From positions 1 through 35,443 of the IMG/VR virus record IMGVR_UViG_3300036398_001557: a stretch of 35,443 nucleotides of DNA; one strand, 5' to 3'. Of this stretch, positions 2,699 through 21,235 are shown in pieces. Under the pieces are notes generated by a model, which made no database searches, was not told the DNA's origin, and worked only from the letters and a program-made list of their open reading frames with translations. Source of the stretch: a virus. Position numbers and translations under genes: made by a program. Position 1 is the first letter of the stretch. The number at the start of each line of letters is the position of its first letter.

Positions 2699-2860
2699 TT
2701 AGTGGGTTTGGCTTTTCAGTTGTACTTTGAGCTCGGCATTCTCATCGAGCAGTCGGGCAATGCGTGCGCACATCTCTTGCACCAGGGCATCGTCGTTCTC
2801 CATGTACGCGTAGCGCAGGAGCTCCTCGTCTGTCATGTTGGCAAGTTGTACTCGTGACAT
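2699..2860 (-). CDS. Small acidic hypothetical protein (53 aa)
   Basis: ATG at 2860 with GGAGA upstream; stop at 2699, 20 nt before the primase start. The product is acidic, with a helical C-terminal half (ARLLDENAELKVQLK) that looks like a short coiled coil. It overlaps the end of the upstream HTH gene by 28 nt, suggesting translational coupling. No function is recognised. Confidence 0.6.
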   Translation of the reverse strand: MSRVQLANMTDEELLRYAYMENDDALVQEMCARIARLLDENAELKVQLKSQTH

Positions 2861-3111
2861 ATTTTTCTCCATGCCTCATCAGCGGTGCGTGAGGACTTCA
2901 TGATTGTTAGTAGCAACTCCACGCGATTTTGATACGCGACGAAAACGTCTTTGCCCATGAACCAGTTGTACACGGTCTGCCGGGTGACGCCAAGTGCTTG
3001 CGCGATTCTGGTCACGGGAAAGTCAAGGTGGATGGCCCATCGCCCGAGCTGGTTGCCCGGGGTCTTGGGCGCTGCTAGGACAGCGTCGATTGTTTTTTGC
3101 GAATAAGACAT
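2833..3111 (-). CDS. Small helix-turn-helix DNA-binding protein (92 aa)
   Basis: The start is the ATG at 3111 (MSYSQKTID...), because longer readings of this frame only shadow the gene upstream. Residues 33-52 (VTRIAQALGVTRQTVYNWFM) form a clear helix-turn-helix like those of Cro/C1 or Fis-type regulators; the rest is helical. It could be a phage regulator or a replication-associated DNA-binding protein. No strong Shine-Dalgarno is visible; a GC hairpin (3120-3139) sits just upstream of the start and could govern its translation or trim the mRNA. Confidence 0.75.
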   Translation of the reverse strand: MSYSQKTIDAVLAAPKTPGNQLGRWAIHLDFPVTRIAQALGVTRQTVYNWFMGKDVFVAYQNRVELLLTIMKSSRTADEAWRKICHEYNLPT

Positions 3112-3119
3112 TGTGTTGG

Positions 3120-14935: not shown

Positions 14936-16297
14936 TTACTCCTCAGTGTTGAACAGCTCGTCTTGAGCAGGGGTGTGGTCAGGGTGGTACTTCTCGCCGT
15001 CTACGAGCACATAGTCGGTGTTGTCTGAGTAGTAGTTGTCAGAGCCTTCGCACTGCCACGCATCGTCCTTGTGTAACCAGCCGTGGTCTACAGTCTCGAC
15101 GCAGTTGTCGATGTGGTGGTACTTGTCGTCGTACTCGCAGTGGATGATGTCCGAGTCCTCGATGTGATACCACTCATCGTCATCATCACACCGCACAGCG
15201 TTGTTAGTGTGCGCGTAGTCGCCGTCGGCCAGCTCAACGATGTCGTTGTCACCGATATAGTGGCTGTCGTACCAATCACCATCGGCCTCAACCGCGTCAT
15301 CGTTGGGCACATAGTAATCCTCACCCCTGCGTCCGGTGACATACGTGTAGTCGTGATCGACACAGTTCTCACACACCATGTGATCGCCGTGGTAACCGAC
15401 ACTGCGCAGGTCGTCCTCGTCGCATCGCTCGCCGCAGTCCGGACAGGTGTGGCGACCCTGATGGTTGGGCGTGCCGTCAGTGTTACGCATCTCGTACTCG
15501 CCATCGTCGTCGATGTACAGCTCCTGCTTGTGGGTAAGCGTAGCGCGTGTCGTGTCGCCGTCGAGGTAGGGTGCGAGGAACTCGCCGTGTGCGATGGGTA
15601 TGTATGCAAGCTGCGCCCCGTCATGCCAGTAGTTCCACCTGACATACCCCCGCTCTTTGAGCCACGCCTCAAGCTGCTGGTCAGTGTGCGAGTAGACGCT
15701 ACCCTCCTGCTTGCCGAACGACCTGACCCAGTAGTTGTGACCATCATGTGTGTTGAGCAGCGCACGGCCAACGATGTCGCCACTGGGTGCGATGCGTATC
15801 GCCATGTGCCAGCCATACTGCGGGTCATACGCGGCGTAGGGATGCCTGCGTTCGCCATCGGAGCAGCGCACGAAGTCGCGTGCTGTCCAGCACATACATG
15901 AGTGAGGGCCGTTGTTGACAGCGTGCACCATGTCCTGCGTGGTGTTGATTATTTTGTATGTGTCAGTGCCGCCAGTGTAGAGGGCAACCGCATCGCGGAT
16001 GACATGGTCAGGCAGGTCGAAGTGCCGCGTCAAGTACTTGCCAACAGAAGTCATCAACTGCCGGTTGGCCTCGCCTGCACGCTCGTCACGGGTATACGCA
16101 AGGCGCAGCGCGTCAGTCTGCGCCACATGGGGCCACTCAAGCAGCAACTGCTGCCAGTCACGCGGGCGATGGTCATCGACAAGCAGGCGCTTGACCGATG
16201 GGTGCAGGGTGTACTTGTCTGTCTCCCGCTCAAACCACTCACGATGGCAGCGCACGATGTTCATGGCCACGAGGAATGTACTGTCATACCATTTCAT
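14936..16297 (-). CDS. Large acidic protein with zinc knuckle and Asp/Tyr/His-rich repeats (453 aa)
   Basis: ATG at 16297 with AGGAGAAGCAA. Residues 1-270 form a globular part rich in Trp and His (e.g. HSCMCWTARDFVRC). Around 285-315 there is CPDCGERCDEDD and CENC, a probable zinc site. From there to the end run about seven degenerate repeats of 15-22 residues of the type DDDDEWYHIEDSD, CEYDDKYHHIDNC, DHGWLHKDDAW and GSDNYYSDNTDYV, giving a very negative surface. Similar Asp/Tyr/His repeats occur in phage proteins of unknown role. DNA mimicry or metal binding are possibilities only. The peptidase gene follows after 5 nt. Confidence 0.75.
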   Translation of the reverse strand: MKWYDSTFLVAMNIVRCHREWFERETDKYTLHPSVKRLLVDDHRPRDWQQLLLEWPHVAQTDALRLAYTRDERAGEANRQLMTSVGKYLTRHFDLPDHVIRDAVALYTGGTDTYKIINTTQDMVHAVNNGPHSCMCWTARDFVRCSDGERRHPYAAYDPQYGWHMAIRIAPSGDIVGRALLNTHDGHNYWVRSFGKQEGSVYSHTDQQLEAWLKERGYVRWNYWHDGAQLAYIPIAHGEFLAPYLDGDTTRATLTHKQELYIDDDGEYEMRNTDGTPNHQGRHTCPDCGERCDEDDLRSVGYHGDHMVCENCVDHDYTYVTGRRGEDYYVPNDDAVEADGDWYDSHYIGDNDIVELADGDYAHTNNAVRCDDDDEWYHIEDSDIIHCEYDDKYHHIDNCVETVDHGWLHKDDAWQCEGSDNYYSDNTDYVLVDGEKYHPDHTPAQDELFNTEE

Positions 16298-16318
16298 TTG
16301 CTTCTCCTAGTTTCTAGT

Positions 16319-16368
16319 GCCGGGCATTGGCGCTGCCCGGCTATGCGCTGTGAGACATGGTGTCTCAC
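16319..16368 (-). repeat. Composite intergenic element, copy A (palindrome plus hairpin)
   Basis: In leftward order: GTGAGACACCATGTCTCAC (16368-16350), whose first TGA is the stop codon of the gene at 16365; then a hairpin GCCGGGCA/TGCCCGGC with a 7-nt loop (16341-16319); then the Shine-Dalgarno of the 453-aa gene. The same order recurs at 19050-19103. It probably forms two stem-loops in mRNA. There is no T-run, so it is not a standard terminator. Confidence 0.7.
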
Positions 16369-16595
16369 GAATCCTTCTCTGTTACTGCCCAGCCCATGTT
16401 CTTGATGACACGCCCAAGAGAGGTGTCGGGGAACGGGCCGTTGGTGATGATGACTCGGCGCTCAGACTTGAACACCTGCACTATCGTCCCCGAGCGCGGC
16501 ACTATCCACACGCCGCCATCTCTGAGCGACTCGAACAGGTCACGCGTCCACTCGACTGCGCGGTTCATGCCGCCTACTGTGTTGAGGTCATACAT
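16365..16595 (-). CDS. Hypothetical protein (76 aa)
   Basis: ATG at 16595 with GGAGGAGCTTATCA; overlaps the DUF2591-like gene by 8 nt. Mixed alpha/beta (GGVWIVPRSGTIVQVF), hinting at a small beta domain. Its TGA stop lies within the GTGAGACA palindrome. No family recognised. Confidence 0.65.
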   Translation of the reverse strand: MYDLNTVGGMNRAVEWTRDLFESLRDGGVWIVPRSGTIVQVFKSERRVIITNGPFPDTSLGRVIKNMGWAVTEKDS

Positions 16596-16965
16596 TGATA
16601 AGCTCCTCCGGTACGTCCACGGTGTCGCCCAGCTTGCTTACCACATAGCAGCGCATCGCTGCGATCAGGGGCGTGGGGCCGTACTCTTCGTAGTAGGCTG
16701 TTGCGTTGAAGTCTTTGTACCGGCATTCAACTGAGCCAATCCAGTAGGGATCTTCTTCGTCAAGGTAGCTCGTCAGGCTGATACCCTCTTGCTCAATGAT
16801 CGGGCCACCTTGCTCCCAATCGGTGGATGGTTCCCAAAAATCATAGTGTCTGTCGAACGGCTGACCGATCAGGCGCACCATGCCGCCATCGATGCTCACC
16901 GTCAGACTCTCACACCTCGCTACTGCCCAATCAAGGGCTGCGCCTGTCAGTTCACTTGTATTCAT
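16588..16965 (-). CDS. DUF2591-like phage protein (125 aa)
   Basis: ATG at 16965 with the exact cassette AGGAGAAAGCAAATG. MNTSELTGAALDWAVARCE at the start and GPTPLIAAMRCYVVSKLGD, then VPEELI, at the end match the DUF2591 family of phages and prophages, whose function is unknown. It starts 14 nt inside the end of the previous gene. Confidence 0.85.
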   Translation of the reverse strand: MNTSELTGAALDWAVARCESLTVSIDGGMVRLIGQPFDRHYDFWEPSTDWEQGGPIIEQEGISLTSYLDEEDPYWIGSVECRYKDFNATAYYEEYGPTPLIAAMRCYVVSKLGDTVDVPEELINV

Positions 16966-17110
16966 TTGCTTTCTCCTTGAAGTGTTGCTCCGCTTTGCGG
17001 TCTTGCTCGTCGTCGTACTCATCCGACGCTATGTCGGCCAGCTTGTCCTCGGCCTCGTCCCATGTGTAGCCTGCATCGAGCAGGCGTTGGCGCAGTTGGC
17101 TCTCACTCAT
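16952..17110 (-). CDS. Hypothetical helical protein (52 aa)
   Basis: ATG at 17110 (MSESQLRQRLLDAGYTW...), weak GGTGGGG upstream. Acidic helix DEAEDKLADIASDEYDDEQD. The tail FKEKANEYK is encoded by the Shine-Dalgarno cassette of the next gene. Function unknown. Confidence 0.6.
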   Translation of the reverse strand: MSESQLRQRLLDAGYTWDEAEDKLADIASDEYDDEQDRKAEQHFKEKANEYK

Positions 17111-17297
17111 GGCCCCACCCCTGCCCTGGTGCATAACGCTCGAACAGGTGTCCGAACGCCGTGAGTAGTCGTTGTTTGTTCTCACTGTCGGCCACGAAGT
17201 AAGCATCGGCAATGCGCGCGGCAAAGCCGCCGCCGTAGTACACCATGTTGTGGGCTGCCTTGATCAGCTCGCTCTCGCTCATGTCATTTGCTTTCAT
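17103..17297 (-). CDS. Hypothetical protein (64 aa)
   Basis: ATG at 17297 with the exact cassette AGGAGAAAGCAAATG; an in-frame ATG at 17282 is less well placed. MSESELIKAAHNMVYYGGGF then ADAYFVADSENKQRLLTAF suggests a helical domain. Its stop overlaps the next start by 8 nt. Its MSESE- opening resembles the MSESQ- of the next gene, possibly an old duplication. Confidence 0.65.
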   Translation of the reverse strand: MKANDMSESELIKAAHNMVYYGGGFAARIADAYFVADSENKQRLLTAFGHLFERYAPGQGWGHE

Positions 17298-17538
17298 TTG
17301 CTTTCTCCTTGGTTGCTGCGCTGGCACAGGCCAGCTTTGTCAGAAGTCGATTCTCCAGCGCGAACAGGCGGTCGAGCCTGTCTTGCACTTCACCGATCTT
17401 GCGGTTGCGAAACGGCTCATCGTGCGAGGCGTAGCTCCTGTCCACATACTCACGCACCGGCAAGCGATGATTGCGGTGTTCTCGCAATGCCCACAGCACG
17501 GCTTGCGCCGTATCATCCGTCAAATCAATACTTATCAT
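17284..17538 (-). CDS. Hypothetical helical protein (84 aa)
   Basis: ATG at 17538 with the exact cassette. Mostly helical (TAQAVLWALREHRNHR, EVQDRLDRLFALENRLL), possibly a coiled-coil dimer. The tail KEKANESK is produced by reading through the next gene's ribosome-binding cassette. No family recognised. Confidence 0.65.
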   Translation of the reverse strand: MISIDLTDDTAQAVLWALREHRNHRLPVREYVDRSYASHDEPFRNRKIGEVQDRLDRLFALENRLLTKLACASAATKEKANESK

Positions 17539-17698
17539 TTGCTTTCTCCTTGAAGTGGGCCTTGAACCATGCGCTGTCTACCGCCTCGCGTGCTTGCTTG
17601 AGCGCCATCGGGTCGTTGTTTCTCAGGTGCTCAACGATGGGCCACGAGTTGAGCAGCACTTGCAGTGCGTCGTAAAGTTTCTTCTCGGTGTCAGTCAT
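17525..17698 (-). CDS. Hypothetical helical protein (57 aa)
   Basis: A frame from ATG at 17698 with the exact cassette, ending at 17525 inside the next gene. MTDTEKKLYDALQVLLNSWP then MALKQAREAVDSAWFKAHF are amphipathic helices; the tail is KEKANDKY, again encoded by the cassette. It fills an otherwise empty slot with the same spacing as its neighbours. Confidence 0.65.
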   Translation of the reverse strand: MTDTEKKLYDALQVLLNSWPIVEHLRNNDPMALKQAREAVDSAWFKAHFKEKANDKY

Positions 17699-17877
17699 TT
17701 GCTTTCTCCTTTCATTGCTTCGTCTACCATCTTGTGCGCCAAGTTCAGCGCCATGCCTGCGGCCAGGAACGCGATCACTCGCTCCTGCCCTGTGAACCGC
17801 TCGCAGTACTCCATCAGTGCCTCCATGTCCTTGGGCGTTGCGAACATCTTGTTCAGTCCTAGCGGGTTCTCTTTCAT
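17695..17877 (-). CDS. Small protein with hydrophobic helix (60 aa)
   Basis: ATG at 17877 with the exact cassette; its stop overlaps the next ATG. RVIAFLAAGMALNLAHKMV is a hydrophobic or amphipathic helix, perhaps membrane-associated. The tail KGESK is encoded by the downstream cassette. Function unknown. Confidence 0.65.
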   Translation of the reverse strand: MKENPLGLNKMFATPKDMEALMEYCERFTGQERVIAFLAAGMALNLAHKMVDEAMKGESK

Positions 17878-18077
17878 TTGCTTTCTCCTATCAGTTGGTT
17901 GCGAATCTCGTTGAGTTGTGCCAGCACACTCTCGCGTGTGCCTTTGAACCCCATGTCTTTGAGCAGGGCGTATGCACTACGCCCTCGGCGGTGCATCCCT
18001 TTCATCTCCAGCATGAGCATCGAGCGCAGCGTAAGCAGCCGCGCCCCTTCGATCTGGTTGCCTGTGAGTACTGTCAT
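17874..18077 (-). CDS. Hypothetical helical protein (67 aa)
   Basis: ATG at 18077 with AAGGAGCAGTGAC. GARLLTLRSMLMLEMKGMHR then SAYALLKDMGFKGTRESVLA suggest a small helical DNA-binding-like fold, but nothing definite. The tail IGESK comes from the next gene's cassette. Confidence 0.65.
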   Translation of the reverse strand: MTVLTGNQIEGARLLTLRSMLMLEMKGMHRRGRSAYALLKDMGFKGTRESVLAQLNEIRNQLIGESK

Positions 18078-18078
18078 G

Positions 18079-18240
18079 TCACTGCTCCTTGTGTATCTGG
18101 TTAACGTACCACTCCTTGTCGATGTTGGCTGGGTCTTTGTCCAGCTCATCCCATGCCAAGTCCTCTGCTGCGTTGGCGTCTTCTGCCTCGACCTCGATCT
18201 CAAGGAAGGCGACTCGTTTGAACTCTACGTAGTACTTCAT
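18079..18240 (-). CDS. Small acidic protein (53 aa)
   Basis: ATG at 18240 with GAGAGGATGAAC. MKYYVEFKRVAFLEIEVEA is a beta hairpin, followed by an acidic helix AEDLAWDELDKDP. This alpha/beta miniature fold is common among phage orphan proteins. One nt separates its stop from the next start. Confidence 0.65.
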   Translation of the reverse strand: MKYYVEFKRVAFLEIEVEAEDANAAEDLAWDELDKDPANIDKEWYVNQIHKEQ

Positions 18241-18242
18241 GT

Positions 18243-18464
18243 TCATCCTCTCCAGTAGTTGTTGAGCAGGTGCACTGCGTCTGCGAGTGTCGCTGCGGCT
18301 TTGTCGATCTGGTGGTGCACAACCTCCAGCTTGTGCTGCGCTGTGGTATTGCCCGCCTCGTGAGCGGCAACGCCTTCGCTGTGCACGATAGCCTTGGCTC
18401 TGTCTGCCTTGGCCCATGCGGTGATGAGCGCCTGTGTGAGCGTCTCGTAGTCTTCTGGTGTCAT
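18243..18464 (-). CDS. Hypothetical helical protein (73 aa)
   Basis: ATG at 18464 with cassette variant AGGAGAAAGTAAATG; it overlaps the stop of the upstream 50-aa gene. Helical throughout (LTQALITAWAKADRAKAIV, HHQIDKAAATLADAVHLL). Function unknown. Confidence 0.65.
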   Translation of the reverse strand: MTPEDYETLTQALITAWAKADRAKAIVHSEGVAAHEAGNTTAQHKLEVVHHQIDKAAATLADAVHLLNNYWRG

Positions 18465-18613
18465 TTACTTTCTCCTTGTTTAGCGGCTGTCCATGCCGCG
18501 TGCCATACCTGCCACATCCTTCCCTTGTAGGGGAAGTCTCTCGGGGTGAAGTCAGGGAACGTGGCTTGACACCACACCCTGTATGCGTTGCGCATCTGCG
18601 TCAGTTCTTTCAT
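18461..18613 (-). CDS. Small Trp-rich protein (50 aa)
   Basis: From ATG at 18613 with AGGAAAACGCAAATG, a two-difference cassette. MKELTQMRNAYRVWCQATFP then RMWQVWHAAWTAAKQGESK is Trp-rich and basic. It ends in the cassette-derived GESK tail. It closes a 146-nt gap between two supported genes and overlaps the next start (ATGA). Confidence 0.65.
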   Translation of the reverse strand: MKELTQMRNAYRVWCQATFPDFTPRDFPYKGRMWQVWHAAWTAAKQGESK

Positions 18614-18882
18614 TTGCGTTTTCCTTTCGGGAAGGCCACGCCAAGCAGCTCGTACATCACGGCGTACCCTTCGCTGTCTGCTGCGCCGAAGTTGCTGTAC
18701 CTGTCCTGCGCAAGAGCGATGACCTGCGCCGCTTCACCCTCGGTAGTACAGCTATTGAGCGCGCTCTCGGCCCACTTGTTCAGCGCGTGTGCTGCCACAT
18801 CGCGCCCCTCAATGTCATACAAGGCCCACTGGTCTGCAGTCAGGGCGACCCTGAACGTGCGTGTCACAGTTACGTTCTCCAT
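18610..18882 (-). CDS. Hypothetical protein (90 aa)
   Basis: ATG at 18882 with GGGAGAACGCAAATG, a two-difference cassette. N-terminal strand VTVTRTFRVALTADQW, then helices with ALNKWAESALNSC and AQVIALAQDRYSNF. No family recognised. Confidence 0.65.
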   Translation of the reverse strand: MENVTVTRTFRVALTADQWALYDIEGRDVAAHALNKWAESALNSCTTEGEAAQVIALAQDRYSNFGAADSEGYAVMYELLGVAFPKGKRK

Positions 18883-18895
18883 TTGCGTTCTCCCT

Positions 18896-19027
18896 TCATA
18901 CGTGTTTGCTGAGCCACGCCACGCACTCATCGTGGCTGCCCATGAATCGCGGCGCGATGCGGTTGTATGCCATCACAGGGCGCACGATGTAGCAGTCCTG
19001 TGCATAACTCCAAATCACTTCATACAT
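18896..19027 (-). CDS. Small protein (43 aa)
   Basis: ATG at 19027 with AGGAGAAAGTAAATG. MYEVIWSYAQDCYIVRPVMA suggests a short beta sheet, followed by SHDECVAWLSKHV. It is the first gene after the composite element 19050-19103. Confidence 0.6.
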   Translation of the reverse strand: MYEVIWSYAQDCYIVRPVMAYNRIAPRFMGSHDECVAWLSKHV

Positions 19028-19049
19028 TTACTTTCTCCTTTTTACAAGT

Positions 19050-19103
19050 GCCGCACATTGGGTATGGCTGTGCGGCTTGGCCATGTGGGACATGGTGTCT
19101 CAC
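19050..19103 (-). repeat. Composite intergenic element, copy B (palindrome plus hairpin)
   Basis: Leftward order as in copy A: GTGAGACACCATGTCCCAC (19103-19085), containing the TGA stop of the 246-aa gene; hairpin GCCGCACA/TGTGCGGC with an 11-nt loop (19076-19050); then AGGAGAAAGTAAATG of the 43-aa gene. The two copies share CAATG..CGGCACT around the second arm, so they look homologous rather than coincidental. Confidence 0.7.
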
Positions 19104-19840
19104 CCCAGCAGCGTCTGCCACTTGGCTGGCAGCGGGGTGTGCCTGGGCATCTTGTCCAGTAAATTTTTGGCTGCATGGATGTTGGCTAGCTGTGCGTCGA
19201 GGCGGTCAATGTCGAAGCTGTTCGTTACCAAGCTGCGCTCGACCTCGGCTGCCTGCTGTGCGTTCTCAAGCTGGTCGAACAGGGCTTTGCGCTGGGCTTT
19301 GTGCATGGCGCGGGGTAGGCGGCGCTCGAAAGTAACTTTCTTCTTGCCTCGTGCGGGTGGCGGCAGGCTGTCGAACAGGGCTGCGATCTGGCGGCGTTCT
19401 TTGATGGGCACGAAGTCCACCCAGAACGTGCCGTTGTTGGGAATGTGCCGCCCCAACTCCTTGCCCAGGAAGGCGACGAACTGCGGGGGCGTGTGCTCCC
19501 CTGCGTACTGCACTTTCTTTAACTTGTCTATGAGTGCTGCGATGCAGTTCTCGTAGCGGCACAGCGCGTCCCATCGCACATCGTCCGGGGCTTTCTTTAA
19601 CTGCGCTTTTAGTACGCGAACATTGACAAGCTCTTTGCGGGCGGGGGCAAGCAGGTCTTTCCATGCGTTGAACTGCGCAGTCTTGCGGATTGAGACCTTG
19701 CGCTGTGCTTCGCGCTGCTCGTAGACCTGCTGCATGACGCTGTCCACGATCTCGGGCGGGTACTTCAACTTGCTGGTCAGATGGTCACGCAATCGGGCCG
19801 CGCTCATCCTCAACCACCGCGCTTTAAGGGTGTTTTCCAT
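19100..19840 (-). CDS. Hypothetical basic protein (246 aa)
   Basis: ATG at 19840 with AGGAGTTAAAGT. Rich in Lys and Arg and mostly helical (LRDHLTSKLKYPPEIVDSVM, LDAQLANIHAAKNLLDKMP), with a central segment PNNGTFWVDFVPIKERRQIA. It could bind nucleic acid. No family recognised. It lies 19 nt downstream of a degenerate operator-like site; its stop lies in a GTGAGACA palindrome. Confidence 0.65.
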   Translation of the reverse strand: MENTLKARWLRMSAARLRDHLTSKLKYPPEIVDSVMQQVYEQREAQRKVSIRKTAQFNAWKDLLAPARKELVNVRVLKAQLKKAPDDVRWDALCRYENCIAALIDKLKKVQYAGEHTPPQFVAFLGKELGRHIPNNGTFWVDFVPIKERRQIAALFDSLPPPARGKKKVTFERRLPRAMHKAQRKALFDQLENAQQAAEVERSLVTNSFDIDRLDAQLANIHAAKNLLDKMPRHTPLPAKWQTLLG

Positions 19841-19858
19841 ACTTTAACTCCTGTTCTT

Positions 19859-19874
19859 GGTCACTTTTTGGACA
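19859..19874 (-). promoter_or_regulatory. Degenerate operator-like site, copy 4
   Basis: Minus strand TGTCCAAAAAGTGACC shares 11 of 16 positions with the 4558 and 13793 sites, including the whole TGTCCAA half. It stands 19 nt upstream of the 19840 start, almost the distance seen at 4538. Confidence 0.35.
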
Positions 19875-20004
19875 GATTTCCAAATCCGTCGCTTACTTTA
19901 ACACATGGTTTGCTTGTGTGTGCCAGCCGCAAACCCGCATGAATGCTAGCTTTCGCTTGCATCCAACGCAACCATCCATGTGTTTTGAAAAATGCTTTCA
20001 CCAT
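19861..20004 (-). CDS. Possible small protein (47 aa)
   Basis: A frame from ATG at 20004 (MVKAFFKTHGWLRW...) overlaps the stop of a 20-codon frame (19998-20060), as in coupled genes, but has no Shine-Dalgarno. The right arm of the surrounding inverted repeat reads like a broken copy of its middle part (CATGCGGGTTxxCGGCTGGC), with in-frame stops. This may be a real small gene or leader, or chance. Confidence 0.25.
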   Translation of the reverse strand: MVKAFFKTHGWLRWMQAKASIHAGLRLAHTSKPCVKVSDGFGNLSKK

Positions 20005-20193
20005 AGAGTTTGTTTAATACGTTTTTGCGTCACTGATTTGACGGCGTGTAGTGTGTACATAATAAAACTTCTTTACTTACTAAATAGTTTTTAAATAGAT
20101 GGATAGATAGGGGAAAAAACACGCCGAGCCAGCAACCATGCGGGTTAGCGGCTGGCGTGTATGTAAAAAACGGATGCTAAAGTTTGCGACGGA
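19885..20193. repeat. 67-bp imperfect inverted repeat flanking an AT-rich segment
   Basis: The left arm, 19885-19951, aligns without gaps to the reverse complement of the right arm, 20127-20193, at 47 of 67 positions. The best part, GCCAGCCGC(A/T)AACCCGCATG and onward, is 26 of 30. The 175 bp between the arms are strongly AT-rich, with AAATAG and GATAGATAG runs. The whole gap 19841-20226 has no well-supported gene. A replication origin, a decayed element or a duplicated regulatory hairpin are candidates. Confidence 0.7.
20113..20160 (-). terminator. Leftward rho-independent terminator
   Basis: Read leftwards, ACACGCCAGCC pairs with GGCTCGGCGTGT (one bulged base) with inner pairing AACC/GGTT, followed at once by TTTTTTCCC (20119-20111). 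It would end transcripts from the 21.1-20.2 kb genes and isolate the unit beginning at 19840. Confidence 0.75.
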
Positions 20194-20211
20194 ATTTTTT
20201 TGGTCTCATGG

Positions 20212-20230
20212 GTGAGACAGAGCGTCTCAC
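20212..20230. repeat. GTGAGACA palindrome, copy E (variant)
   Basis: GTGAGACAGAGCGTCTCAC: 7-bp arms and a 5-nt centre. On the minus strand its first TGA is the stop of the gene at 20227. A third half-site, GGTCTCA, lies at 20202. Confidence 0.7.
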
Positions 20231-20406
20231 CGCCAGAGACGCTGCTGCACACCGGCTTCTTTCATGGCTTCGCGCCAGACTTGCCAGTCGGTGCGGGCTT
20301 GGCGCTCGGCTTCGAGGCGGCGCTGCTCGTGCTTGGGTAGGGTCTGCTTGATCTCGTCGCGCAGCTTCATGAGTTGCTTGAGGTGGTAGGTTTTGAATGA
20401 GGACAT
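20227..20406 (-). CDS. Small basic helical protein (59 aa)
   Basis: ATG at 20406 with AAGGAGTCCATC. MSSFKTYHLKQLMKLRDEIK then EQRRLEAERQARTDWQVWRE is highly charged and helical, with a coiled-coil look. Its stop lies in palindrome copy E, and a leftward terminator follows about 70 nt on. Function unknown. Confidence 0.65.
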   Translation of the reverse strand: MSSFKTYHLKQLMKLRDEIKQTLPKHEQRRLEAERQARTDWQVWREAMKEAGVQQRLWR

Positions 20407-20416
20407 GATGGACTCC

Positions 20417-20581
20417 TTACTCTGGGGTGACTTCAATCAGTTGGTCGAGTTTGAACTTCTTGGTCTGCATGGTGTGCATATTGACCGCCACGAAAGCGCT
20501 GATCTTCTTGAAGACGTAGTGCTGGTGGACAAACGAATCGCCTACGTCGAGGCCGCCGAAGTGGGTGCGGATTGTGTGCAT
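20417..20581 (-). CDS. Hypothetical protein (54 aa)
   Basis: ATG at 20581 with AAGGAGCTTTCATC; an upstream in-frame ATG lies inside the palindrome and lacks a site. Beta-rich (GDSFVHQHYVFKKISAFVAV) and ending KFKLDQLIEVTPE. No family recognised. Confidence 0.6.
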   Translation of the reverse strand: MHTIRTHFGGLDVGDSFVHQHYVFKKISAFVAVNMHTMQTKKFKLDQLIEVTPE

Positions 20582-20602
20582 GATGAAAGCTCCTTGGGTT
20601 GT

Positions 20603-20621
20603 GTGAGACATGGTGTCTCAC
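20603..20621. repeat. GTGAGACA palindrome, copy C
   Basis: GTGAGACATGGTGTCTCAC, a perfect 8-bp inverted repeat with a 3-nt centre, between the 139-aa gene and the 54-aa gene, 22 nt upstream of the latter's ATG. Confidence 0.75.
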
Positions 20622-20642
20622 GGATTGACAGGAAATGGAACA

Positions 20643-20668
20643 GCGGCCAGCCCTCCCCGACTGGCCGC
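20643..20668 (-). other. GC-rich hairpin after the 139-aa gene
   Basis: GCGGCCAG pairs with CTGGCCGC around a 10-nt loop, 14 nt past the stop at 20682. No T-run follows, so termination would be inefficient; an RNA-stability role is possible. Confidence 0.5.
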
Positions 20669-20681
20669 GCAGGAAAAACTA

Positions 20682-21101
20682 TCAAACTGCTGCCAGAGCA
20701 GCCTTGGCTGCAGAGACAGACCCGCACAGCTTGATGAGCGCCTTGGCGGCCTCGCGTGCCTCGCGGCTGATGCGGGCATTGGCCTTGGGTGCTTTGGGCT
20801 TCTCGGGCGTGAACCACGGCGCTACGTTGCGCTGCCAGCTCTTGGTGGCCGCGTGATGCCGCGTGTCGCGTGTGGACTCCTCGCCGGTGTGGAACACGGC
20901 TGCGCCCGACTTGTTCCAGGTGTAGCTGCACTGAAACTTGGCAGCGTGAATCTGCGCCAGCTCTTTGATGAACGTGGGACATGGTGTCTCACCAAGGGAC
21001 TTGGCAGCGGCCCGCATGGATGCCGCATATGACGCACCAGCATCGAGGAATCGTTTGTAGTCGATGAGTGCTTTCTGAAGGGTTGCAGTGAGTTTGCTCA
21101 T
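20682..21101 (-). CDS. Hypothetical basic protein (139 aa), first gene of the leftward operon
   Basis: ATG at 21101 with TTGGAGAAACTTCC. Helical and Ala-rich at both ends (YKRFLDAGASYAASMRAA; SREAREAAKALIKLCGSVSA), basic in the middle. A GTGAGACA palindrome copy is embedded in the coding sequence and encodes part of LGETPCPT. A terminator-like hairpin stands 20 nt upstream of the start, so expression may need readthrough. Function unknown. Confidence 0.65.
   Translation of the reverse strand: MSKLTATLQKALIDYKRFLDAGASYAASMRAAAKSLGETPCPTFIKELAQIHAAKFQCSYTWNKSGAAVFHTGEESTRDTRHHAATKSWQRNVAPWFTPEKPKAPKANARISREAREAAKALIKLCGSVSAAKAALAAV
20974..20992. repeat. GTGAGACA palindrome, copy D, inside a gene
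   Basis: GTGGGACATGGTGTCTCAC, one change from the perfect palindrome and identical to copy B, but within the coding region of the 139-aa gene (residues about 37-43). Its presence in coding sequence suggests a DNA- or RNA-level role. Confidence 0.7.
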
Positions 21102-21116
21102 GGAAGTTTCTCCAAT

Positions 21117-21165
21117 AAAAAAGCCCCGCACTGGCGGGGCATCAGACCGGCTCGTTCCCGAACCG
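21117..21165 (-). promoter_or_regulatory. Leader with GNRA hairpin and terminator (possible attenuator)
   Basis: Leftward RNA: CGGTTCG-GGAA-CGAGCCG (21165-21148), a 7-bp stem with a GNRA-class tetraloop, then 7 nt, then GCCCCGC-CAGT-GCGGGGC (21140-21123) followed by TTTTTT (21122-21117). It lies between a predicted promoter and the first leftward gene (21101). A terminator at this place implies attenuation or antitermination. Confidence 0.65.
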
Positions 21166-21173
21166 ATGACTCT

Positions 21174-21179
21174 ATTGTA
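21174..21179 (-). promoter_or_regulatory. Predicted leftward promoter, extended -10
   Basis: On the minus strand TGTTACAAT gives an extended -10 (TG, one nt, TACAAT). No good -35 is found 17 nt upstream. Transcription would start near 21167 and run straight into the leader hairpins. Confidence 0.4.
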
Positions 21180-21184
21180 ACACA

Positions 21185-21235
21185 GGGGTACTAGGCAGCC
21201 TCTGCTGCAGCGGCCTTTTGGCCTACTCTGACCCC
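21185..21235. other. Potential three-way-junction structure
   Basis: GGGGT (21185-21189) pairs with ACCCC (21231-21235) and encloses two hairpins: GCAGC/GCTGC (21195-21208, 4-nt loop) and GGCC/GGCC (21212-21223, TTTT loop). It would fold on either strand. It lies just upstream of the predicted leftward promoter and is not explained by a gene. Confidence 0.4.

Follow-up and report, generated by a model that had tools for sequence, protein, structure and literature searches.

Palindromes in a leftward gene block

The window analysed here is a stretch of 35,443 nucleotides that constitutes the whole of IMG/VR virus record IMGVR_UViG_3300036398_001557 and encodes tailed-phage proteins (a terminase, a family A DNA polymerase, a DUF927 protein, an SNF2-type helicase and a PD-(D/E)XK nuclease). 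In a leftward block of genes, a 19-bp palindrome, GTGAGACA-N3-TGTCTCAC, is present five times with no more than one change in the arms, and the first gene of this block, 20682-21101(-), encodes a protein of 139 amino acids that is proposed here to be a regulator acting on them. Three copies overlap stop codons: 16350-16368 (perfect arms) that of open reading frame (ORF) 16365-16595, 19085-19103 (one arm change, GTGGGACA/TGTCTCAC) that of 19100-19840(-), a gene of the block for 246 amino acids of unknown function, and 20212-20230 (centre GAG and one arm change) that of 20227-20406. The fourth copy (20603-20621, perfect arms) lies between the stop codon of the proposed regulator gene and the ribosome-binding site and ATG of 20417-20578(-), and the fifth (20974-20992, mixed arms with one arm change, GTGGGACA/TGTCTCAC) lies inside the regulator coding sequence at a place that is conserved in relatives. 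A preliminary description of the window had reported these five copies, the TGA of three of them as a stop codon, one copy wholly inside a coding region and no T-run after the palindromes, all of which was borne out. Chance is excluded by 100 dinucleotide shuffles, which gave a mean of 0.20 palindromes, a maximum of two and never five; no further copies are found elsewhere in the record. Lacking a T-run, the window copies do not have the form of an intrinsic terminator (a hairpin followed by a U-run), and a U-run lies within 40 nt of 16 of 136 sites, compared with 16 of 276 controls. A second hairpin stands 8 nt past the 16350 and 19085 copies in the leftward sense (16318-16342 and 19047-19075), with compensating arm differences (GCCGGGCA/TGCCCGGC and GCCGCACA/TGTGCGGC). 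A second hairpin as a general feature after sites was rejected, the mean downstream minimum free energy being -11.7 compared with -13.4 in controls.

Palindromes of the family form GTGNNACA-N3-TGTNNCAC occur in uncultivated tailed phages, where each genome has several of them gathered in a single block of a few kilobases. The pattern GTGRGACATGGTGTCYCAC was found in 38 IMG/VR stretches, three of these on one contig, and a looser pattern with a free centre gave at least 118 IMG/VR matches; among the matches listed, 61 of 121 pooled sequences have at least two copies. In the longer multi-copy records the copies are confined to one block with none elsewhere, and nearly all multi-copy contigs have the terminase of the window and the gene preceding it. 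The genome_contigs of 84,980 species contain a single exact match to GTGRGACATGGTGTCYCAC, in a Prevotella metagenome-assembled genome, and for this reason a host repeat was rejected. The search for the 19-mer that the preliminary description had recommended thus finds only five copies in the window, others in relatives and one match in genome_contigs; the repeat is neither abundant in host chromosomes nor missing from relatives, as that description had allowed that it might be. The window terminase is 45-53% identical to those of HTVC027P and HTVC023P (Pelagibacter phages), DSL-LC04, 023Pt_psg01 and Pag-Yong1, and the repeat is absent from the first 50 kb of each of the first four. In the first 50 kb of Planktothrix phage Pag-Yong1 (L128, OL906435) there are 22 copies, with few mismatches, of a different palindrome, CGGTTCAG-N1-CTGAACCG, perhaps a parallel system or terminators.

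The copies within a contig tend to have the same arms, these being all GTGGGACA/TGTCCCAC in many and mostly GTGAGACA/TGTCTCAC in others. Contigs found later bring the half-sites GTGGAACA, GTGATACA, GTGCGACA and GTACGACA, with the other arm mirrored or one change off (the full form of the second of these is GTGATACA-N3-TGTATCAC). Since copies at unrelated places have the same sequence, they point to one factor acting in trans on all of them.

Proposed pairing of the palindromes with the protein of 20682-21101(-)

When gene content was compared between eight multi-copy records and three single-copy records of 62-68 kb, the family of 20682-21101(-) was the only one present in all of the former and none of the latter; the runner-up ORF family was in five of the eight. 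Part of this association is due to the site inside the regulator gene itself, which does not explain the other copies. A search of IMG/VR with the protein family alone yielded 58 loci, including 17 contigs without the exact site patterns, which were hence unreachable by a site search. At least two GTGNNACA-N3-TGTNNCAC palindromes are present in 15 of these 17; the sixteenth (L220) has five copies of CGGGACA-N3-TGTCCCA, and the seventeenth (L217) ends 213 bases past the regulator gene. The window protein has no Pfam model and no PHROG match, and its sequence matches no PDB chain beyond chance; among 25 relatives, two have marginal matches to phrog_15056 and one to UPF0181. A protein scan of genome_contigs returned no relative. 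No published text on the palindromes or the regulator protein was found in titles and the beginnings of abstracts, with most subscription papers outside the search, and a search of one HTVC023P paper (PMC9599517) for palindromes gave no hit.

In some relatives the gene at this place combines a similar C-terminal stretch with another N-terminal part, and a de novo search at these loci identified a palindrome of approximately GAGAGA-N2-TCTCTC (N4 in some copies). A search with this second allele gave 32 loci, 30 of which have at least two GAGAGA palindromes (123 in total, compared with one in a shuffle); L245 and L248, the remaining two, break off inside the gene or shortly after it. At loci with the window allele, at least two GTG-type sites are present in 55 of 58 and at least two GAGAGA sites in one of 58. 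One to three GTG-type sites remain in 11 of the 32 second-allele loci, as would fit recombinants. Compared across these loci, the exchange of the N-terminal domain and the switch of palindrome class go together. In five relatives (L009, L013, L018, L025 and L026) a GAGAGA-type palindrome replaces the 19085 palindrome of the window behind 19100-19840, and homology to the window restarts at the palindrome end, the adjoining segment being 93-98% identical.

A GAGAGA palindrome also occurs at about 4830-4856 of L009, in a stretch that aligns at 98% with about 17910-17936 of the window, where the window has none. Further alleles of the regulator locus were noted (L052, L078, L085 and L091; L094 and L104), with related half-sites such as CTGAGACA or CTGGGACA. 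A conserved helix-turn-helix protein of the window (2836-3114(-), HTH_23), which 10 of 35 related records share at 59-95% identity, was rejected as the partner: its recognition-helix stretch GVTRQTVYNWF is identical across A-type, G-type and GAGAGA-type records and therefore fails to explain the site switch.

Among relatives with the window allele, the sites vary with two residues of the protein. The comparison comprised 58 contigs with 231 sites in 854,479 bases, a shuffle of which gives one site. Where residue 83 is D or E, 188 of 190 half-sites have G as their base 4, and so do 42 of 42 where it is S or N; the base is A in 127 of 144 half-sites with H, L, Q or V at this residue and in 62 of 62 with G, and C in 22 of 24 with A or Y. 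Base 5 is G in 340 of 344 half-sites where residue 87 is K, A in 40 of 48 where it is M (the remainder being C or G), and T in 62 of 62 where Q or V stands beside G83. Across 47 distinct proteins, base 4 is assigned without error from column 83, against a baseline of 53%, and in 91.5% from the runner-up among columns that are not own-site codons; chance-corrected scores, which are needed because column 83 has 11 letters, are 1.0 and 0.71, respectively. The best columns for base 5 outside the own-site codons are 83 (0.82) and 87 (0.80). Columns 38 and 42 also predict site bases, yet they are codons of the site within the gene and so provide no evidence of recognition. The minimal number of changes on the tree is five for base 4 and six for base 5, and M87 with A or C at base 5 occurs in three separate places (L178; L034 and L194; L206). 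The window regulator carries H83 and K87. Its AlphaFold2 model (mean predicted local distance difference test score, pLDDT, 86.9) consists of a beta-hairpin, a helix of residues 83-92, a low-confidence linker and a C-terminal helical pair; as both residues fall in the predicted helix, they would be about one turn apart. From the covariation and the model it is inferred that residues 83 and 87 read bases 4 and 5 of the half-site. Extension of this code to the second allele through L111 was dropped because that contig is a hybrid: two GAGAGA sites lie at its own gene, and three GTGGGACA sites remain. The AlphaFold2 model of the second allele was of low confidence (63.9) and was not used for a fold search.

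The site inside the regulator gene lies 103-115 nt past the start in 33 of 36 cases, and in 37 of 39 contigs its upstream half is of the same type as the remaining sites, the exceptions being one AG contig with GG and the single mixed A/C contig. The peptide that it encodes differs by type: GGTPCPT in 17 of 20 G-type contigs, GETPCPT in 8 of 9 A-type contigs, GGTPCST in all three GA contigs and GDTPCIT in all five AT contigs. In A-type phages the second half of the site stays GG, and the proline is thereby retained. To judge from these alignments, the DNA site is maintained while the encoded amino acids change, which would make it a case in which selection on DNA overrides protein sequence.

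The palindromes are, with high probability, binding sites of the protein encoded by 20682-21101(-). Operators were one of four options offered in the preliminary description and are the one upheld, as the sites and the adjacent protein change together; the partner gene itself had been missed.

Proposed action in transcribed DNA

With genes predicted by a crude caller, 121 of the 158 sites that fall outside the regulator's own gene lie between genes or at a stop codon, compared with 22% of random places in the same spans, and 84 of the 158 begin from 22 nt before to 15 nt after a stop. Leaving aside the sites within the own gene, all but one of 132 distinct sites lie downstream of the regulator start, within 7.2 kb. 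The arms are symmetric and the spacer is polar: in the sense direction it is C-first in 67 of the 132, and in 22 it is C-first in the opposite sense only. The flanks are polar too, with CAA frequent after the site.

Because the sites are in transcribed DNA after stops and inside the regulator's own gene, away from promoters, a block of elongation is proposed. A symmetric dimer of the 20682-21101(-) protein would bind the palindromes as DNA operators, and the bound protein would block the elongating RNA polymerase at sites past gene stops; as it accumulates, both the block and the regulator would be shut off, which amounts to a roadblock of the stoperator kind combined with negative feedback. 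This form of the proposal was chosen because the placement and polarity of the sites resemble those of the stoperators of Cluster A mycobacteriophages. Operators of the neighbour protein combined with a roadblock are the best explanation overall, with a probability of roughly 0.6; the roadblock step, judged separately, is mildly favoured. The joint change of the protein and the scattered sites is suggestive of a switch by which early transcription would be halted at the ends of genes.

Several observations weigh against this explanation. The gene caller places 37 of the 158 sites inside other predicted genes. The predicted fold of the regulator has no match to a known DNA-binding fold, a search with the first model having found nothing convincing (best Foldseek E-values 0.97 in PDB and 0.26 in BFVD, best VIA Z 4.5). 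Base 5 is G in eight of eight half-sites where Q87 stands beside D83 (L008 and L081), which breaks a one-residue rule, and the mixed A/C sites of L206 are an exception to the code. Independent pairs on well-supported branches number one for base 4 and four for base 5, and are nearly all concordant without being significant. At the junction behind 19100-19840 in the five relatives described above, neighbouring genes were exchanged as well, so that the exchange at this junction alone is not specific to the regulator gene. Finally, protein binding and the elongation block are both deduced from sequences.

The same protein might act through the same sites on initiation instead, if they were operators or activator sites of internal promoters before the following genes. 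Such promoters would be compatible with the 57 of 180 sites whose end is no more than 60 nt from a called start codon, and phage promoters may be of types outside the scan; however, an extended -10 element was found within 100 nt downstream of none of 136 sites (5 of 276 controls) and other -10-like hexamers near 7 of 136 (9 of 276 controls), many sites are at gene ends or within genes, and the own-gene site is about 105 nt into the coding sequence. Action on initiation is considered improbable.

Less probable still is a protein-site system for DNA maintenance, replication or packaging, with a partition-like or small-terminase-like protein. The block does adjoin the terminase genes, and several copies in one block recall iterated or partition sites, but the sites favour gene ends, are polar with transcription and spread over as much as about 7 kb, and one copy is kept at a fixed place inside the regulator gene. 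Placement in one block downstream of one regulator gene likewise weighs against the sites bound during replication that the preliminary description had suggested.

That description had also suggested RNA-processing hairpins and nut/put-like antitermination sites. The palindromes are part of transcripts, in which they could fold into a stem of 8 bp closed by a loop of 3 nt, and the regulator gene is preceded by a structured leader; the unequal arms of 48 of 172 distinct sites weigh against action as RNA. As mRNA, these arms would place A opposite C in 29 sites, G opposite U in 10 and other combinations in 9, counts that give a direction only and have no test value, the rows being related to each other. 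A selected RNA hairpin should favour G.U, yet A.C predominates about threefold, so RNA pairing is not preserved. Moreover, the loop sequence varies freely, the stem bases track a protein residue, and no Rfam family was matched in the window. A function as RNA is very improbable, and both of these suggestions lose ground. Were the palindromes recombination linkers, or small mobile repeats dispersed by a protein of transposase type, the partner gene would be incidental; this would account for the restart of inter-phage homology at a palindrome and for identical flanks after one copy behind differing upstream genes, but is just as improbable in view of a neighbour protein without a Pfam match to a transposase, arms that vary in concert with residue 83, and an in-gene copy rewritten to the lineage type at amino-acid cost.

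Operators of the 20682-21101(-) protein, with a roadblock to elongation, are thus the preferred reading. This reading assigns a putative function to a family of proteins of uncultivated phages that has no annotation, and offers a naturally occurring code of protein-DNA recognition in testable form. A speculative and rather doubtful extension is a self-contained specificity system in virulent phages, in which the alleles of one modular regulator share a C-terminal domain, exchange their DNA-reading domains, follow a readable residue-to-base code and define incompatibility groups. In that case, a phage already expressing its regulator would silence the early block in co-infecting phages of its own type and leave other types unaffected, and swapping the domain together with its site set would create a new type.

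Neighbouring features and known systems

The window record is probably a fragment, as the longest related records fetched are 50-68 kb. The gene downstream of the last palindrome (14936-16297(-)) encodes 453 amino acids and belongs to phrog_6980, of unknown function. The product of 16588-16962(-) is a homolog of P22 NinX (PF10765), and a near-identical start block (CATTTGCTTTCTCCTT on the plus strand, which read leftward is a ribosome-binding site and start codon) precedes many small leftward genes in 16958-19042. In the window and a number of relatives, the regulator gene is preceded by an extended -10-like element; in the window this is TGTTACAAT (21174-21182(-)), a consensus match only, 81 nt before the regulator start. 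In the leader (21102-21190(-) and relatives, 14 aligned leaders), the element is followed by a hairpin whose arms differ among relatives. A terminator-like hairpin with a T-run (21123-21140(-)) stands directly before the ribosome-binding site of the regulator, as it does in some relatives, and the leader could be an attenuator. No tyrosine integrase or resolvase family was matched in 13 records, long ones included. Together with the lack of a regulator relative in genome_contigs, this means that lysogeny is not indicated, in records that are possibly incomplete.

The put sites of HK022 and the nut sites of lambda act as RNA in transcribed early operons. The palindromes resemble them as early-operon elements in transcribed DNA with arms able to pair, and differ in that RNA pairing is not preserved. 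The C1 operators of phage P1 are asymmetric and scattered along the genome; here too several scattered sites are predicted to serve one phage repressor, but they are palindromic, and no protein relation turned up, no comparison having been aimed at it. T4-type promoter-early stem-loop cassettes, which carry promoters, are likewise small repeated elements between early genes, whereas promoter elements are not enriched at the sites described here.

The closest parallel is with the Cluster A mycobacteriophages (L5, Bxb1), in which an immunity repressor bound at stoperators blocks elongation (PMC6550527, PMC9283540), with up to 30 stoperators per genome (PMC6550527) that are asymmetric and bound by a monomer (PMC9283540). 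Both systems have several sites in transcribed DNA, mostly off promoters (here in one block), a phage-encoded DNA-binding protein (here predicted), and a site motif and protein that diverge together among relatives (PMC6550527). Stoperators have one orientation relative to transcription (PMC6550527); here the arms are symmetric, and the spacer and flanks are polar. The palindromes differ from the 13-bp asymmetric stoperator in being symmetric 19-mers, GTGNNACA-N3-TGTNNCAC, and in being few and confined to one block behind the regulator gene. Matches to PDB chains, to Pfam and in the fold search revealed no clear relation to the Cluster A immunity repressor, with its HTH and stoperator domains. 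Because the sites are palindromic and no protein relation was detected, the system is not filed as a member of the Cluster A stoperators. Cluster A phages are temperate, and here 13 records gave no integrase or resolvase match; if the roadblock is real, stoperator-like control would extend to phages with no sign of lysogeny, in which its role would be timing or exclusion instead of prophage maintenance.

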